The position numbers and the translations under genes were made by a program. Source: Chloroflexota bacterium (GTDB taxonomy: Bacteria; Chloroflexota; Anaerolineae; UBA3071). Taken from it: a stretch of 5,621 nucleotides of DNA. Positions 104-5,438 of the stretch are shown here, piece by piece. How positions within the stretch are numbered: the first letter of the stretch is position 1; each line of letters starts with the position of its first letter. The notes below the pieces were generated by a model, which worked only from the letters and a program-made list of their open reading frames with translations, ran no database searches and was not told the DNA's origin. The stretch lies in NCBI GenBank assembly GCA_014383605.1, contig JACNHM010000288.1:1-5621 (forward strand), written 5' to 3'.

Positions 104-170
104 ACCGCGGAGACCGCCGAGCACGCCGAGAAAATCAAAGAATCTCTGCGTGCTCCGCGTGCTCTGCGGT
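104..170. repeat. Imperfect inverted repeat of 9-base units
   Basis: The left arm (104-131) and right arm (143-170) are complementary at 23 of 28 positions, around an 11-base A-rich loop. Each arm is itself a degenerate tandem repeat with a 9-base period: the left reads CGCGGAGAC, CGCCGAGCA, CGCCGAGAA (106-132) and the right reads ATCTCTGCG, TGCTCCGCG, TGCTCTGCG (142-168). I recognise this GCGGAG-type element as a dispersed intergenic repeat seen in several phyla. It lies just upstream of fdhD and could form a long hairpin in a transcript, but no T-tract follows, so I do not call it a terminator. Confidence 0.8.
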
Positions 171-217
171 GAAGAAAGAGCATCAACACAAAAGAGGTAG
201 ACCACCCAAATTCGCGA

Positions 218-1024: not shown

Positions 1025-1540
1025 ATGATCGTTACGGCGTGTGAGACCGCCTTGGGCTGGGTGGGCATCGCCGCTTCGGCGGCGGGCCTGGTGGAGTTGA
1101 CGCTGCCTGAGCCGACGGAAGCGGCAGCGCTGCAGCGGTTGCGGGAACGTCATGGCCACGGCGAACCGGACGATGGCCGGCTGGCTGGGCTCAAGGCCCG
1201 GCTGCAGGCCACCTGCCGCGGCGAAGCGGTCAACTTTGACGACCTGCCACTGGATGCGCACCAGGGCACGGACTTCCGGCGGCGCGTGTGGGCGGCCACG
1301 CGGGCCATTCCCCGCGGCCAGACTCGCACCTACGGCGAGTTGGCGCGGGAGGTCGGCTCGCCGGGCGCGGCGCGGGCCGTGGGGCAGGCCATGGCCCGCA
1401 ACCCCTGGCCCATCGTCGTGCCCTGCCACCGCGTCGTGGGCAGCGATGGCCGGCTCACCGGCTTCGGCGGCGGGCTGGAGATGAAGCGCCATTTGCTGGA
1501 GCTCGAAGGGTGCAGATTGGACGAGATAGACGGTCAGTGA
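1025..1540 (+). CDS. ogt: Methylated-DNA--protein-cysteine methyltransferase
   Basis: A suicide DNA repair enzyme that moves the alkyl group from O6-alkylguanine (or O4-alkylthymine) to its own cysteine. The C-terminal DNA-binding and active-site domain is complete: TDFRRRVW (82-89), IPRGQTRTYGELA (95-107), AARAVGQAMARNP (115-127) and the active site PCHRV (133-137) with acceptor Cys134. By comparison with human MGMT, Tyr103, Arg117 (the finger residue), His135 and Glu161 are all present. The N-terminal half (about 1-78) is the short, weakly conserved ribonuclease-like domain. 171 residues is normal for Ogt. ATG 1025 is in the same frame as fdhD, 9 bases beyond its stop, and is the only sensible start; AGGAGG (1005-1010) inside the fdhD end may be its rather distant ribosome site. 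The stop codon lies within the first unit of a heptad repeat. The gene could be named ogt or mgt; the family is certain. Confidence 0.95.
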   Translation: MIVTACETALGWVGIAASAAGLVELTLPEPTEAAALQRLRERHGHGEPDDGRLAGLKARLQATCRGEAVNFDDLPLDAHQGTDFRRRVWAATRAIPRGQTRTYGELAREVGSPGAARAVGQAMARNPWPIVVPCHRVVGSDGRLTGFGGGLEMKRHLLELEGCRLDEIDGQ

Positions 1541-1594
1541 TCAGGATTCTGGTCACCGCCTGATGACTGATCACTGATACCTGAGACCTGATTC
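1535..1594. repeat. Degenerate 7-base tandem repeat, intergenic
   Basis: This fills nearly the whole gap between ogt and the next gene. Units are CAGTGAT, CAGGATT, CTGGTCA (1535-1555), then 4 bases, then five units beginning CTGA: CTGATGA, CTGATCA, CTGATAC, CTGAGAC, CTGATTC (1560-1594). Positions 1534-1544 are perfectly complementary to 1567-1577 (11 pairs, 22-base loop), so a hairpin is possible. The first unit includes the ogt stop codon. No T-tract follows, so a terminator is not supported. Confidence 0.8.
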
Positions 1595-1605
1595 CAGAGG
1601 ACTTC

Positions 1606-2718
1606 ATGCAGATCGGAGTTGACGCCCGACTGACCTACTACACGACCGCCGGCATCGGGCAGTACACCATCAACCTGCTGCGGGCGTTGGCGGACATAGA
1701 CCAGGACGACGATTTCATCGTCTTCCAGAGCCGGAAGGCTGTTGCGCCGTTGCTGGAAGGGAATCAGTTTCGCTGCCTGGGGCTGTGGACGCCCAGCCAC
1801 CACCGCGTCGAGCCCTACCTGCTGAGCCTGGAATTGCTACAATACTCGCTCGACCTGCTGCACAGCCCCGATTTCATCCCCCCCTTCTGGGGCGGCTTCA
1901 AGTCCATCATCACCATCCACGACCTGGCCTTCCTCGTGTATCCGCACTTTCTGACCCGGGAGAGCGCCCGCTACTACGGGCGTATTGACCAGGCCGTGCG
2001 CCGCACCGATCACATCATCGCCGTCTCCGAGAGCACACGGCAGGACATCATCAATTTGCTGGGCGTGCCGGACGATAAGATCACCGTCATCCACGAGGCT
2101 GCCGATCCCCTCTACCGCCCGCTGGATCGCGCCGAGGCGGCGCGCTTTGTCCGTGATCGCTTCGGATTGCCCGAACGGTTCATACTTTTCGTCAGCACCA
2201 TCGAGCCGCGCAAGAACGTGCAGGGGCTGCTGCGCGCCTACCGCCAATTCCTGGAAGATTACAAGCTGGACGTGGGTCTGGCACTGGCCGGCGCCCGCGG
2301 TTGGCTGTTCGAGGAGGTGTTCCAGCTCGTGGAGCAGCTGGGCTTGCGACAATCCTGCCATTTCCTGGGCAAGGTCACCAACGAGGAGTTGCTGTACCTC
2401 TACAACGCGGCTCGTTGCCTGGCGCACCCGGCGTTTTACGAAGGGTTCGGGCTGACGCCGCTGGAGGCCATGGCCTGCGGCACGCCGGTGGTGGTATCCA
2501 ACGTCTCCAGTCTGCCGGAGGTGGTGGGCGACGCCGCCCTGCTGGTGGATCCCGAGGACGAGGAGGAACTGATCGTGGCGCTGTGGCGGCTGGTGACCGA
2601 CGACGATCTGTGGGCCGAGCTGCGGGAGAAGGGGTTGCAGCGGGCCCGCGCCTTCTCCTGGGAAAAGGCAGCCCGTCGCACGCTGGAGGTCTATCGGCGG
2701 GTGGTGGGGAATCAGTAG
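1606..2718 (+). CDS. Family 4 glycosyltransferase (GT-B fold)
   Basis: A retaining glycosyltransferase that moves a sugar from a nucleotide donor to a glycan acceptor, probably at the cytoplasmic side of the membrane. The N-terminal acceptor domain shows a glycine-rich loop, TAGIGQYTINLL (14-25), and TIHDLAF (103-109). The C-terminal donor domain begins at FVSTIEPRKN (195-204) and carries the EX7E signature as Glu279 and Glu287 in EGFGLTPLEAM (279-289), followed by CGTPVVVSN (291-299). 370 residues is the usual length, with no membrane segment or signal peptide visible. ATG 1606 is preceded by AGAGGA (1596-1601) at 4 bases. It resembles mannosyltransferases of polysaccharide and O-antigen clusters, but the donor and acceptor cannot be read from the sequence. 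It lies 34 bases before another glycosyltransferase, which supports a role in a shared surface glycan. The stop codon is part of a tandem repeat. Confidence 0.93.
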   Translation: MQIGVDARLTYYTTAGIGQYTINLLRALADIDQDDDFIVFQSRKAVAPLLEGNQFRCLGLWTPSHHRVEPYLLSLELLQYSLDLLHSPDFIPPFWGGFKSIITIHDLAFLVYPHFLTRESARYYGRIDQAVRRTDHIIAVSESTRQDIINLLGVPDDKITVIHEAADPLYRPLDRAEAARFVRDRFGLPERFILFVSTIEPRKNVQGLLRAYRQFLEDYKLDVGLALAGARGWLFEEVFQLVEQLGLRQSCHFLGKVTNEELLYLYNAARCLAHPAFYEGFGLTPLEAMACGTPVVVSNVSSLPEVVGDAALLVDPEDEEELIVALWRLVTDDDLWAELREKGLQRARAFSWEKAARRTLEVYRRVVGNQ

Positions 2719-2739
2719 ATTGGTAGATTGGTAGATTGG
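2716..2739. repeat. 8-base tandem repeat, three perfect copies
   Basis: TAGATTGG occurs three times without change (2716-2723, 2724-2731, 2732-2739). The first TAG is the stop codon of the preceding glycosyltransferase. The repeat takes up most of the 34-base gap before the next start codon. Confidence 0.92.
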
Positions 2740-2752
2740 GAACGAGAAAACG

Positions 2753-4006
2753 ATGACAGACCGCAAGCGTATCCTCGTCCTGACCCCGCAATTGCCTTAC
2801 CCGCCGCAGCAGGGCACGGCCATCCGCAACTACAACCTCATCGCCCACCTGGCGGCTCGTCACCGGCTGCACCTGCTCTCATTCCGGCAAGAGGGGGACG
2901 AACTGGCTTCCGACTCGCCGCTCTTCCGGCACTGCCAGCGCATCGAGACCGTGCCCGCGCCGCGGCGCACGCTGGGGCAGCGGCTGCTGACTACCATTTC
3001 CTCGCCCTTGCCCGACATGGCCCTGCGGCTGGCCTCCCGCGCCTTCCAGCAGCGGCTGGCGGCCCTCATCGCCGAGGAGACCTACGACGTGGTGCAGATC
3101 GAGGGCATCGAGATGGCCCCCTACGGGCTGTGGCTGCGCGCCTGGCCGCGCTTTGCCGCCCTCACGCCCCGCCCGCGGCTCGTTTTCGACGACCACAACG
3201 CCGAATACCTCCTGCAGCGGCGCGTCTTCGAGACCGACGCCAGGCGACCGCGCCGCTGGGCGGGCGCGCTCTACTCCCTCATCCAATGGCAGAAGCTGAG
3301 CCACTACGAGACCCACGTCTGCCAGCAGGCCGACGGCGTGGCCGCGGTGTCGGAAGCGGACGCCGTGGCGCTGCAGCGGCTGGTGCCAGGGCTCCATCCC
3401 GCTATCGTCCCCAATGGCGTGGATCTTCAATTCTACAATGACCAAATCCCAATGACCAAACCCCAAGATGTGGTCATTGGCCATTGGCCATTGGTGTTTA
3501 CAGGCAAGATGGATTTTCGTCCCAACGTGGATGCCGTGCTGTGGTTCGCCGACGAGGTGCTGCCCGGCATCCGCTCGGCGCGGCCTGAGGCGCACTTCGT
3601 CGTCGTGGGCCAGAAACCTCACGCCCGCCTCGACCCGCTGCGCCAGCGGGAGGACGTGACCCTCACCGGTTGGGTGGAGGATGTGCGCCCCTACATCGCC
3701 AGCGCGGCGGTGTACGTGGCCCCCTTGCGCATGGGCGGCGGCACGCGGCTGAAGCTGCTGGAGGCTATGGCCATGGGCAAACCCATCGTTTCCACGTCGC
3801 TGGGCTGCGAAGGGTTCGATGTGACCGATGGACAGGAGCTGCGGGTGGCTGATGCGCCGGAAGCCTTCGCCGCCGCGGTGCTGGAATTGCTGGCCGACGA
3901 AACGCAGCGGGCCAGACTGGGCCGCACTGCCCGCCGCTTCGTCGAAGCGCACTACGGCTGGGAGGCGATTGTGCCAAGGATGGAAGAGCTTTACGTCGTG
4001 GATTAA
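2753..4006 (+). CDS. Family 4 glycosyltransferase, exopolysaccharide type
   Basis: A second GT-B glycosyltransferase, different in subtype from its upstream neighbour. The N-terminal domain opens with RILVLTPQLPYPPQQGTAIR (6-25), the nucleotide-sugar transferase style of the exopolysaccharide (exosortase-associated, Stp1-like) group, and contains DDHNAEY (146-152). VPNGVD (219-224) ends the first domain. The donor domain runs from LVFTGKMDFRPNVDAV (247-262) through GWVEDVRPYI (307-316) to APLRMGGGTRLKLLEAMA (323-340), where Glu337 is the conserved donor-binding glutamate. 417 residues is near normal. Residues 229-247, between the two domains, are encoded by a heptad repeat and look like an inserted linker. 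ATG 2753 is the first start after the repeat; the site before it is poor (CGAGAAAA), so translation may depend on the upstream gene. It probably extends an exopolysaccharide or surface glycan; the sugar is unknown. Confidence 0.92.
   Translation: MTDRKRILVLTPQLPYPPQQGTAIRNYNLIAHLAARHRLHLLSFRQEGDELASDSPLFRHCQRIETVPAPRRTLGQRLLTTISSPLPDMALRLASRAFQQRLAALIAEETYDVVQIEGIEMAPYGLWLRAWPRFAALTPRPRLVFDDHNAEYLLQRRVFETDARRPRRWAGALYSLIQWQKLSHYETHVCQQADGVAAVSEADAVALQRLVPGLHPAIVPNGVDLQFYNDQIPMTKPQDVVIGHWPLVFTGKMDFRPNVDAVLWFADEVLPGIRSARPEAHFVVVGQKPHARLDPLRQREDVTLTGWVEDVRPYIASAAVYVAPLRMGGGTRLKLLEAMAMGKPIVSTSLGCEGFDVTDGQELRVADAPEAFAAAVLELLADETQRARLGRTARRFVEAHYGWEAIVPRMEELYVVD
3436..3494. repeat. 7-base repeat with hairpin arms inside a CDS
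   Basis: The stretch is in one continuous 7-base register: CAATGAC, CAAATCC, CAATGAC, CAAACCC (3436-3463), a 7-base spacer (3464-3470), then TGGTCAT, TGGCCAT, TGGCCAT and TGG (3471-3494). The two halves are complementary: 3449-3458 pairs perfectly with 3471-3480 across a 12-base loop. It encodes residues 229-247 of the glycosyltransferase, just between NGVD and VFTGKMDF, and keeps the frame open. Confidence 0.85.
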
Positions 4007-4018
4007 AGAAGGGCCGAG

Positions 4019-5278
4019 ATGGATGAGAGGGAAAGGAGGGAAATAGGGGAAATGAAGGGAACTCCGCCCCGGACGAGCCGTCAGCGGTTGCGCCTGGCAT
4101 TTCTCCGTGCGGTCGGCGTGGCCTTGCGTTCTCTGGCTTCTGGTTCCCCATCCCGCATCCCCCGTCCCCCGTCCCTCCTCCTCATCCGCCCTGACCATCT
4201 GGGCGACCTGCTCTTCCTGACCCCGGCGTTGCGCTGGCTGCGGGAGCGTCTGCCGGAGGCGCACATCACGCTGCTGGTCGGTCCCTGGGGACGGGAGATC
4301 ATGCAACGCAATCCGCACGTGGATGAGGTCATCACCTGTTCTTTCCCCGGCTTCACGCGGCAGCCGAAGCGCTCGCTGCTGGCTCCCTATCGCTTGCTGT
4401 TGCAGGAGGCACGCAAGCTGCGGCGGCAGCGCTTCGACCTGTCGCTGGTCATGCGCTTCGACCACTGGTGGGGAGCGTTGCTGGCCGCCGCGGCGGGCAT
4501 CCCCTATCGCCTCGGCTACGCTGTCCCCGAGGTACGGCCGTTTCTCACGCAAGCGGTGCCATACGTTGCCGGGCGGCATGAGGTAGAGCAGAATTTACGT
4601 TTCACGTTTTACGTTTCACGGATCACGTCGCAGGTCGCAGGTCTCAGGTCGCAGGTCTCAGCAGTTGAGCCGATCAGTTGGACGACGCACCCGCTGGAGT
4701 TTGCGCCGGCGCGGGAGGAGGAAGCCTGGGTTGAGGAGTGGCTGCTGGCACACGGCGCGGTGCCCGACCGTCCCCTGGTGGCCATCCATCCCGGCGCGGG
4801 GGCGACGGTGAAGCTGTGGGAGGACGAGAAGTGGGCTGCCGTGGCCGACGCGCTGGCCGAGCGGCGCGAGGCGCAGATCCTGCTCACCGGCTCCGCCGAC
4901 GAGCTGGACCTGGTCTGGGCCGTGGCCGCCCGCACGCGTGTGGACCCGCTCATGGCTGCGGGGGAGACGACGCTGGGGCAACTGGCGGCGCTCTACCGCC
5001 GCTGCCGGCTGGTGATCGGTCCGGATTGCGGGCCGCTGCACCTGGCCGTGGCCGTGGGCACGCCCTCGGTGCACCTCTACGGGCCGGTGGACGCCGGAGC
5101 CTTCGGCCCCTGGGGCAACCCGTTTCGCCACCGCGTGCTCCTCAGCGATTGGCCCTGTGTGCCCTGCAACCGGCTGGACTTCGCCGCCGAGGAACTGCCT
5201 GCTCACCCCTGCGTGCGCGACATCGGCGTCCAACAGGTGCTGGCCGAAGCCGAATCACTGCTGGCCGGCGCGTGGTAG
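4019..5278 (+). CDS. Family 9 (heptosyltransferase-like) glycosyltransferase
   Basis: An inverting GT-B glycosyltransferase of the ADP-heptose:LPS heptosyltransferase (WaaC/WaaF) family. The acceptor domain starts at LLLIRPDHLGDLLFLTPALR (53-72); Asp63 matches the proposed catalytic aspartate of WaaC. The donor domain has VAIHPGAGATVKLW (254-267), LLTGSADE (288-295) and GPDCGPLHLAVAVGTPSVHLYGPVD (334-358), then CVPC (380-383) and Cys398. At 419 residues it is longer than the usual 340-360. The excess lies in the first 52 residues and in residues 192-215 between the domains, and both regions contain heptad repeats. The start is uncertain: ATG 4019 follows a weak AGAAGGG, while ATG 4052 has AGGAGG (4034-4039) 12 bases upstream and gives 408 residues. 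It probably finishes the glycan made with the two preceding enzymes. The sugar need not be heptose. Confidence 0.92.
   Translation: MDERERREIGEMKGTPPRTSRQRLRLAFLRAVGVALRSLASGSPSRIPRPPSLLLIRPDHLGDLLFLTPALRWLRERLPEAHITLLVGPWGREIMQRNPHVDEVITCSFPGFTRQPKRSLLAPYRLLLQEARKLRRQRFDLSLVMRFDHWWGALLAAAAGIPYRLGYAVPEVRPFLTQAVPYVAGRHEVEQNLRFTFYVSRITSQVAGLRSQVSAVEPISWTTHPLEFAPAREEEAWVEEWLLAHGAVPDRPLVAIHPGAGATVKLWEDEKWAAVADALAERREAQILLTGSADELDLVWAVAARTRVDPLMAAGETTLGQLAALYRRCRLVIGPDCGPLHLAVAVGTPSVHLYGPVDAGAFGPWGNPFRHRVLLSDWPCVPCNRLDFAAEELPAHPCVRDIGVQQVLAEAESLLAGAW
4029..4055. repeat. Purine-rich 9-base tandem repeat at a gene start
   Basis: Three degenerate units follow one another: GGGAAAGGA, GGGAAATAG and GGGAAATGA (4029-4055). 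The repeat supplies both a ribosome-site-like AGGAGG (4034-4039) and the alternative start ATG (4052-4054) of the family 9 glycosyltransferase. Confidence 0.7.
4144..4178. repeat. C-rich 7-base tandem repeat inside a CDS
   Basis: Five consecutive heptads: TTCCCCA, TCCCGCA, TCCCCCG, TCCCCCG, TCCCTCC. They encode a Ser/Pro/Arg-rich peptide (residues 43-53) immediately before the first beta strand (LLLIRPDHLGD) of the family 9 glycosyltransferase. The period equals that of the repeats at 1535, 3436 and 4594, but the sequence differs. Confidence 0.75.
4594..4661. repeat. Two adjacent 7-base tandem arrays inside a CDS
   Basis: Block one (4594-4621) has four heptads: TTTACGT, TTCACGT, TTTACGT, TTCACGG. 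After 5 bases, block two (4627-4661) has five: GTCGCAG, GTCGCAG, GTCTCAG, GTCGCAG, GTCTCAG. Together they encode residues 192-215 of the family 9 glycosyltransferase, including SQVAGLR followed by SQVS, which is the 7-residue peptide period expected from a 7-base DNA repeat. The position is between the acceptor and donor domains. Confidence 0.9.
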
Positions 5279-5310
5279 AGCGCGATGGCACAGCAGTAAC
5301 GGATTTGGGC

Positions 5311-5336
5311 AGCGGAAGAGCGAAGAAAGCGAAAAA
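5311..5336. repeat. Purine-rich degenerate repeat, intergenic
   Basis: AGCGGAAG, AGCGAAGAA and AGCGAAAAA follow directly; the last two differ at one base. It lies 32 bases after the family 9 glycosyltransferase stop. Apart from this repeat and the promoter at 5439-5467, I see nothing clear between 5279 and 5532; a 7-pair complementarity (5352-5358 with 5381-5387) has a 22-base loop and no T-tract. Confidence 0.55.
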
Positions 5337-5438
5337 GGTAGATAAACTCCGACCTCTCCGCTTTTCTGCTGGCCGAGCCCGAGAGGTGATGAGAGTGAGC
5401 AAATGCAAGCTACTGCTGAGCGCTCGCTGAGTGGCGGC

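Follow-up and report, generated by a model that had tools for sequence, protein, structure and literature searches.

A 5,621-nucleotide stretch of DNA from a Chloroflexota bacterium (contig JACNHM010000288.1, hereafter the window) carries a series of short tandem arrays, mostly with units of seven bases. We think it probable that these arrays are dispersed members, lacking an open reading frame (ORF), of repeat-hairpin families that, in complete form, are small mobile elements with an S23 gene. S23 (PF05635) is a four-helix-bundle protein known from 23S rRNA intervening sequences (IVSs). The window itself has no S23 gene, and the evidence comes from its relatives: there, S23 genes lie inside inverted arrays, array density correlates with S23 copy number, similar S23 genes have repeat units in common, the genes have moved together with their arms and, in one genome, arrays elsewhere match the arms of that genome's own S23 genes. 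That S23 causes the spread, the manner in which it would do so, and the origin of the window arrays by this route are what we infer from these observations.

One such element was found by comparing Anaerolineales H5_CFX5 (genome G006, locus L062) with its syntenic sister species G016, the median protein identity being 87.7% over 81 reciprocal pairs. A gap following a protein gene is ∼480 bp longer in G006 and holds a 122-residue ORF with CTGACTA arrays on both sides (L101), an element that is absent from the syntenic gap of the sister. The ORF belongs to PF05635/TIGR02436, four helix bundle protein, and matches PDB 2gsc (XCC0516) with an E value of 1.6e−17; weak matches to Avd fell below the cutoff. 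More generally, an inverted match scoring at least 12 between the 150-bp flanks of the gene was detected for 26 of 34 S23 genes. In the controls, the corresponding counts were 6 of 219 for small genes and 8 of 300 when genes of any size were taken. An array of period 6 to 11 lay on at least one side of 29/34 S23 genes, 47/219 small genes and 89/300 genes of all sizes. The S23 loci were mostly the best match of each genome, while the control genes came from seven array-bearing genomes. Seventeen further genomes outside this first set gave inverted arms at 13 and arrays at 15 of 17 S23 genes, one of the 17 being without a downstream flank. Where nearly complete S23 sets were assembled, an exact inverted match of at least 9 was present at 14 of 19 loci in G006 (23 hits) and at 4 of 8 in G003.

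The same arrangement occurs on plasmids. A tblastn search located S23 in 23 of 72,556 plasmid records, 21 of them cyanobacterial. Arrays were present at 13 and inverted arms at 11 of the 16 loci inspected, which include cyanobacteria, Azospirillum and Gemmatirosa; the Azospirillum gene has arms and no array at threshold, and the Gemmatirosa arrays have a period of 8. The neighbours are protein genes in 14 of the 16 loci, with two unannotated, and insertion into 23S rRNA was not found at these loci. On cyanobacterial plasmids, S23 sits between cas6 and cas4, or between cas10/cmr2 and cmr3 (L294, L296, L304), and S23 genes in cas loci were already noted in a 2013 paper (PMC3936711). The S23 element of Nostoc edaphicum (L293) lies antisense between two ribonucleotide reductase genes. 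At some loci (L101:13163–13739, L268, L273), S23 has a whole hairpin, with arrays in either orientation, on one side or on both.

Array density was compared with S23 copy number in 65 genomes, those of the 80 loci homologous to the window for which the genome was searched, using one locus of 6–21 kb each and arrays of period 7, 8, 14 and 16. Density correlated with PF05635 copies per Mb (Spearman 0.67, p = 1.5e−9), the corresponding coefficients being 0.29 for genome size and 0.30 for RVT_1. No array was found in 271,562 bp from the 17 genomes without PF05635, where zero copies may mean missed copies, the sampled genomes being mostly metagenome drafts of uncertain completeness; the 48 genomes with PF05635 yielded 84 arrays in 773,240 bp, and 26 of them had at least one array in the sampled locus. 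The S23 effect persisted in a phylogenetic regression on a one-gene tree (t = 5.9 at lambda 0, 4.8 at lambda 0.95), including when genome size and RVT_1 were added as covariates (t = 5.3 or 4.75).

The arms themselves follow the S23 sequence. Among 2082 (non-independent) pairs of 75 S23 genes, an arm 10-mer was common to 62% of pairs with at least 65% identity (n = 40), 13% at 55–65%, 6% at 45–55%, and 5% and 2% in the bins below. A previous comparison of 47 genes by score had given shared arms in 93% of pairs at or above 70% identity (15 pairs) and 2–4% below 50%. Furthermore, 13 of the 24 pairs with at least 62% identity had no detected homology in the neighbouring frames (∼1.3 kb on each side), and 8 of these 13 share arms, as against 3.0% of 602 S23 pairs below 45% identity. 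Since arms are shared despite unrelated neighbourhoods, an S23 gene can travel with its arms.

Whether arrays elsewhere in a genome match its own S23 arms was examined in two genomes, G006 and G003. For G006, 61.1% of the 221 arrays that are not at S23 loci have an 11-mer in common with the flanks of 19 own S23 loci, whereas 40 draws of 19 foreign S23 loci gave a mean of 23.0% and a maximum of 30.3%. With period-6 arrays included, the matching arrays amount to 101/155 intergenic and 45/94 genic ones. Periods also correspond: five of nine period-6 arrays are matched by an S23 gene whose arms have that period. At period 8, some own S23 flank matches 36 of 50 arrays, chiefly through three S23 genes with period-8 arms (14, 16 and 2 arrays). 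Arrays of period 6, 7 and 8 thus mostly match S23 genes with arms of that period, with exceptions.

If the window arrays are ORF-less members of such families, the full element would consist of an arm of 6–10-bp units (mostly 7), the S23/PF05635 gene and the inverted arm. The S23 protein would recognise the repeat cognate to it, as DNA or RNA, and, together with host enzymes, would promote copying of the stem to new sites, chiefly a few bases past stop codons and in permissive protein linkers, after which slippage could alter the number of units. Such a system would work like RAYT with REPs, S23 being unrelated to RAYT and not a known transposase.

Several points weigh against this reading. 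We know of no activity of S23. In the arm comparison, the wrong-orientation control reached 38% in the top identity bin (2–13% below it), perhaps because many S23 loci carry a whole hairpin on one side; three cross-phylum pairs with at least 65% identity have no arm 10-mer in common; and the cognacy and mobility counts both rest on non-independent pairs. Although arms have units in common, their variant units do not follow a shared order (mean 16.86, compared with 17.00 when permuted, 51 pairs), and this negative mirror-order test also led us to reject fold-back copying of one arm. The own-genome match is not clear in G003, at 10.6% against a foreign mean of 6.3% and maximum of 21.3% (47 arrays and eight S23 loci, some of them truncated). 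Even in G006, an S23 locus without clear arms (L321) matches arrays of period 8, 15 and 16, contrary to simple period matching, and CGTGATG, the commonest unit left unmatched, finds no counterpart among the 19 of 23 S23 loci that were examined. Genome size also contributes to the regression (p = 0.02–0.04). Finally, 22 of the 48 S23-bearing genomes were array-free in the sampled locus, for example G055 with 11 S23 genes and G042 with seven, and G011 has two S23 genes and no array in 60 kb. S23 is therefore at most necessary for the presence of arrays.

The chief rival remains a model in which arrays arise by ordinary slippage and template switching and S23 merely inserts into, or survives best in, the loops of existing hairpins; we regard this as rather unlikely, while taking it seriously. 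It would account for the way ORF-less hairpins resemble the flanks of S23 genes. By composition, the G-rich flank leads at 41 of 47 S23 genes, and a G-rich arm leads in 30 of 33 ORF-less hairpins, a count which describes arm polarity and carries no information on transcription, because an inverted pair reads identically on both strands; orientation to transcription was rejected as its meaning for the same reason. Spacing is similar too: around S23, the median distance is 4.5 nt from the stop codon to the 3′ array (26 genes) and 20 nt from the 5′ array to the start codon (35 genes), while for hairpins in gaps between same-strand genes (n = 33) the medians are 4 nt downstream of the stop codon and 18 nt upstream of the next start. 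That arms match the vocabulary of the host genome would likewise be expected of a gene that lands in resident hairpins, and 23S intervening sequences are described as replacing rRNA loops (PMC4990558). Against it stand the arms shared by 8 of 13 similar S23 pairs in unrelated neighbourhoods (control 3.0% of 602), and the 17 S23-less genomes that are array-free in the sampled loci, which this model could explain only if S23 nearly always arrives where there are arrays.

An origin in mutation alone, with nothing mobile, appears improbable to us. It holds that polymerase contacts 7 nt of DNA, so that slippage favours 7-bp units, the footprint idea of Mrazek 2007 as reported in PMC4679880 and PMC4692102, two papers which also report that, in most genomes, heptanucleotides outnumber every other category of long-unit repeat. 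The excess at period 7 is itself genuine. At a score threshold of 12, the window holds four period-7 arrays and one of period 14, compared with a mean of 0.005 period-7 arrays per window in 200 first-order Markov simulations. Across the 80 homologous loci (1,131,275 bp) we counted 35 arrays of period 7, 12 of period 8 and at most five of any other period from 4 to 24, with none in first-order Markov sequence. Seven array-bearing genomes, sampled over 1,688,300 bp, gave 195 arrays of period 7, 60 of period 8, 37 of 14, 17 of 16, 12 of 12, 10 of 9 and nine of 6, the rest occurring at most five times; an order-5 Markov control sequence contained no arrays. Almost array-free genomes also exist (one array in 120 kb of G010, none in 60 kb of G011). 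Between neighbouring units, transitions exceed transversions by 632 to 352, which suits a mutational origin. The initial annotation, which predicted an excess at 7 over control sequence, was borne out in these samples of relatives, as it was in placing many different units in genes as well as gaps.

It had further proposed that unlike units with a common period betray one generating process rather than copies of an element, and in that form the relatives do not bear it out. The four units it named are indeed dissimilar, but comparable units recur in the relatives as genome-specific families. Counting both arms of a hairpin, the 131 arrays of G006 occupy 48 of 1172 possible circular classes, where a random draw would occupy 121. 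When arrays from different stretches are paired, their classes agree in 181 of 7508 within-genome pairs (2.4%) and 77 of 13,665 between-genome pairs (0.56%; permutation p = 0.003), most of the pairs being contributed by G006. Ten classes occur in at least two genomes, which does not exceed the random value of 17.0; we rely on the within/between contrast only, since the random model for class sharing has more distinct classes. An inverted match within 80 bp accompanies 86 of 183 arrays of period 7 or 14 and a direct match alone only six, and no array was matched by random 80-bp control flanks. For adjacent array pairs up to 60 bp apart, 24 of 47 are inverted (at least 6 of 7 unit positions) and one is direct, against 2.6% of random pairs; a G run followed by a C run at a contig start (L061:7–73), a probable assembly artefact, is counted among the 24 and in the mirror-order test. 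Slippage on a polymerase footprint alone does not predict genome-specific units or S23 arms of matching period, and the match of G006 arrays to their own PF05635 arms (61% vs 23%), its period-6 and period-8 families among them, together with the dependence of array density on S23 copy number, tells against it as well.

Units with at least two G and at least two C make up 4.7% in the seven genomes sampled, compared with ∼40% of random 7-mers, and low self-complementarity appears to account for only part of this avoidance. A heptamer composed of a core plus a spacer was rejected, as variable positions are only marginally clustered (arc 3.52 vs 3.63, p = 0.02).

Selection for intercistronic RNA hairpins in mRNA processing or termination, their sequence free to turn over and S23 a passenger, is very improbable: the spacing of hairpins to the flanking stop and start codons and the unrelated hairpins found in the same gaps of sister species would fit it, but G006 and G016 both have a hairpin in 7 of 23 gaps against 5.1 expected (13 and nine gaps in the single species), which gives no sign that hairpin positions are conserved, convergent gaps are not preferred (4 of 79 non-genic paired arrays) and 71 of 129 unpaired arrays lie within genes. 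The sister comparison started from 27 gaps of at least 40 bp in both species, four of which were left out because of a gap above 260 bp. Some shared gaps contain the same kind of hairpin with unrelated sequence, in another the unit is kept and the loop differs, and elsewhere both are homologous (e.g., gaps 129 and 135). Intrinsic terminators were rejected because convergent gaps, which hold those 4/79 arrays, make up 123 of 1084 gaps, so that no preference is seen. By position, the 103 paired arrays divide into 79 between genes, 21 in genes and three at an edge, as located with a simple custom gene caller that recovered all five window genes. For the 71 unpaired arrays in genes, the C-rich strand is the coding one in 54, a bias plausibly due to stop codons being frequent on the G-rich strand.

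The arrays of the window and its relatives consist of degenerate 7-bp tandem units of multiple types in dispersed positions, with an excess at 7 in the relatives, and so have the features of heptanucleotide simple sequence repeats (SSRs) and short tandemly repeated repetitive (STRR) sequences. Heptanucleotide STRRs are established in cyanobacteria such as Calothrix, and heptamers also occur in the tRNA-Leu intron of Nostoc. The window was rightly set apart from heterocyst-forming cyanobacteria as regards its host, its DNA being Chloroflexota-like; a contrast with the cyanobacterial repeats themselves is doubtful, as plasmid S23 genes of Nostoc, Calothrix and other cyanobacteria sit between such arrays in our analysis. 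The GGGGA(C/T)T repeats of Nostoc (Rehm 2015, PMC4692102) are likewise degenerate heptamer arrays dispersed in gaps and genes. They differ from those described here in host phylum, in our many unit families and linked gene, and in that inverted pairs are common in our relatives and few according to the account of Nostoc in that paper. The same source describes GGGAATC heptamers of Xanthomonas, mostly intergenic and with inverted pairs (70 and 75 in two genomes); these form one unit family, and Xanthomonas campestris has the S23 homolog XCC0516 (PDB 2gsc), whose family, according to a reference title in PMC3936711, assembles from five four-helix bundles. The TAACTGA arrays of Beggiatoaceae (MacGregor 2015, PMC4679880) are also heptameric, mostly intergenic and scattered across phyla, but have one unit and, as described there, one inverted case. 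A mobile repeat-binding protein is guessed at for them in that paper, in whose text S23 and four-helix terms are absent.

Closest in structure are the 23S rRNA IVSs, for example that of Coxiella (PMC4990558), which has an S23 ORF within terminal inverted repeats, is called a selfish element and carries tandem GACAGAT heptamers, two or three by strain, directly upstream of the ORF. A PF05635 ORF between terminal inverted repeats is what was found in the relatives (26/34, 13/17) and on plasmids (11/16); the S23 loci here differ in lying between protein genes, in having tandem arrays as arms and in having many ORF-less kin.

Two systems with a cognate enzyme were also compared. A RAYT gene is flanked by its own REP repeats. 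The REP, BIME and REPIN elements associated with RAYT are likewise described as short palindromic elements dispersed in gaps with a cognate gene, but here the arms are tandem arrays of a variable unit and the Y1 transposase is dispensable. A RAYT/Y1 transposase was rejected as the driver because G029 has 421 overlapping matches to heptamer patterns and no PF01797, and PF01797 had no matches in G029, G009 or G018, all of which carry heptamer matches or arrays. S23 has the fold of Avd, a protein of diversity-generating retroelements, and the two are reported to be homologous (PMC10053308). Reverse transcriptase is nevertheless dispensable here and was rejected as a necessary driver, array-bearing G005 and G015 having no RVT_1 at E = 1e−10; alone, RVT_1 shows the weak correlation given above (phylogenetic generalised least squares p = 0.055, or 0.15 at lambda 0.95).

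A wider claim, which we advance only tentatively as it could easily fail, is that S23 proteins drive widespread selfish elements as a transposase-less, nucleic-acid-binding assembly that propagates cognate 6–10-bp repeats. The cyanobacterial heptamers, GGGAATC, TAACTGA and the rRNA IVSs would then all be products, and the 7-bp period would be the footprint of this protein rather than of a polymerase. The heptamer excess and the polymerase-footprint idea, the inverted pairs of Xanthomonas, the TAACTGA arrays, the GACAGAT heptamers of Coxiella and S23 genes in cas loci are already known. The link between PF05635 genes and dispersed arrays is apparently new; apart from the Coxiella IVS paper, we recognised no report among the open-licence papers searched tying S23/PF05635 to dispersed heptamer arrays. 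Bacterial heptamer arrays have been noted for decades with little beyond the polymerase-footprint guess as to their cause, and a gene family that lies inside arrays and tracks array-bearing genomes (and, in one genome, their units) makes the question directly experimental. It also offers a possible role for a common, uncharacterised protein family, and hints at an unrecognised sort of selfish DNA behind an old puzzle.

Within the window, arrays were called both with Tandem Repeats Finder (TRF) and with an independent period scan, which agreed. There are five genes, encoding FdhD, O6-methylguanine methyltransferase (MGMT), two GT4-type glycosyltransferases and one GT9-type glycosyltransferase. 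Judged by the second glycosyltransferase, the closest relative among the 80 homologous loci is Anaerolineae A05DMB-I-32 (L001), at 84% identity. By analogy with the 9 and 12 PF05635 matches in relatives G001 and G002, the genome from which the window derives presumably carries S23 genes, although each window array shares 10-mers with the flanks of only 0 to 3 of 75 S23 genes from other genomes, sporadically.

The repeats listed at four sites in the initial annotation are real, with a period of 7 or 14 by both TRF and the scan, but the register is not strictly seven. A period-8 array, GTAGATTG × 3.1, occupies 2715–2739 at the stop codon of the first glycosyltransferase (TRF with 100% matches, and scan), and a hairpin at 105–172 that had gone unlisted, intergenic and upstream of fdhD, has a period-9 right arm (CTCTGCGTG × 2.8; TRF at 144–168). 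Its RNA fold (104–174) has an energy of −42.4 kcal/mol and z of −8.96, equalled by 0 of 200 shuffles. The site at 1535–1594, taken as one repeat, is of period 7 in its right part, and most of its left part is an inverted counterpart of this, GGTCAGTGATCAG ... CTGATCACTGATACC, with the right arm running on as a period-7 array to 1592 (array 1559–1592; TRF and scan). The MGMT stop codon (1538–1540) falls within the left arm, and the fold of 1530–1584 has z −3.84 (1/200 shuffles equally good). Likewise, 3436–3494 is an inverted pair of arrays, with period 14 at 3436–3466 and period 7 at 3471–3494 (TRF and scan), in the linker of the second glycosyltransferase. Its C-rich arm comes first, the rarer order, and the fold of 3430–3500 has z −2.80 (4/200). 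The remaining sites are a period-7 array, CCCCGTC × 4.3, at 4146–4175 close to the start of the GT9 gene, and two period-7 arrays end to end, TTYACGT then GTCKCAG, at 4594–4661 inside it (TRF and scan for both). An intergenic hairpin at 5309–5372 has a weak period-8 left arm (TRF at 5311–5337), and the fold of 5300–5378 has z −3.38 (1/200).

Three forward-strand genes are bordered by these arrays or contain them: the first GT4-type glycosyltransferase (1606–2718; PF00534, PF13439), with arrays at both ends; the second (2753–4006; PF13692, PF13439), whose linker contains the 3436–3494 arrays; and the GT9-type gene of the heptosyltransferase family (4019–5278; PF01075), with two in-frame array regions. 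Among the matches listed for the second glycosyltransferase, the best 120 of 5813 homologs, the segment after PNGVD differs by lineage. Many have linker peptides such as CAATGAC-like heptamers would encode (FYNDQFPMTNDQ...) and others are without them, including relatives 84–86% identical to the window; the comparison was at the protein level, with DNA examined for the window and L004. GT9 homologs vary similarly around both sites where the window carries arrays. This variation suggests that the linkers may be insertion points, and cautions that repeat-coded linkers in the proteins of these bacteria may be insertions rather than functional parts. Single reading frames of G006, apparently for membrane proteins (L114:16950–18420, L181:924–5555), contain several distinct arrays, of which many have CGTGAGG- or CGTGATG-type units.

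Hairpins of the ACCGCAGAGG...CCTCTGCGGT type occur in the window (105–172), near position 12200 of L208 and in G016 gaps (e.g., gap 101), and period-10 hairpins of the CACAGATGGACACAG type in other gaps compared between G006 and G016; both look like the same class of hairpin with longer units.

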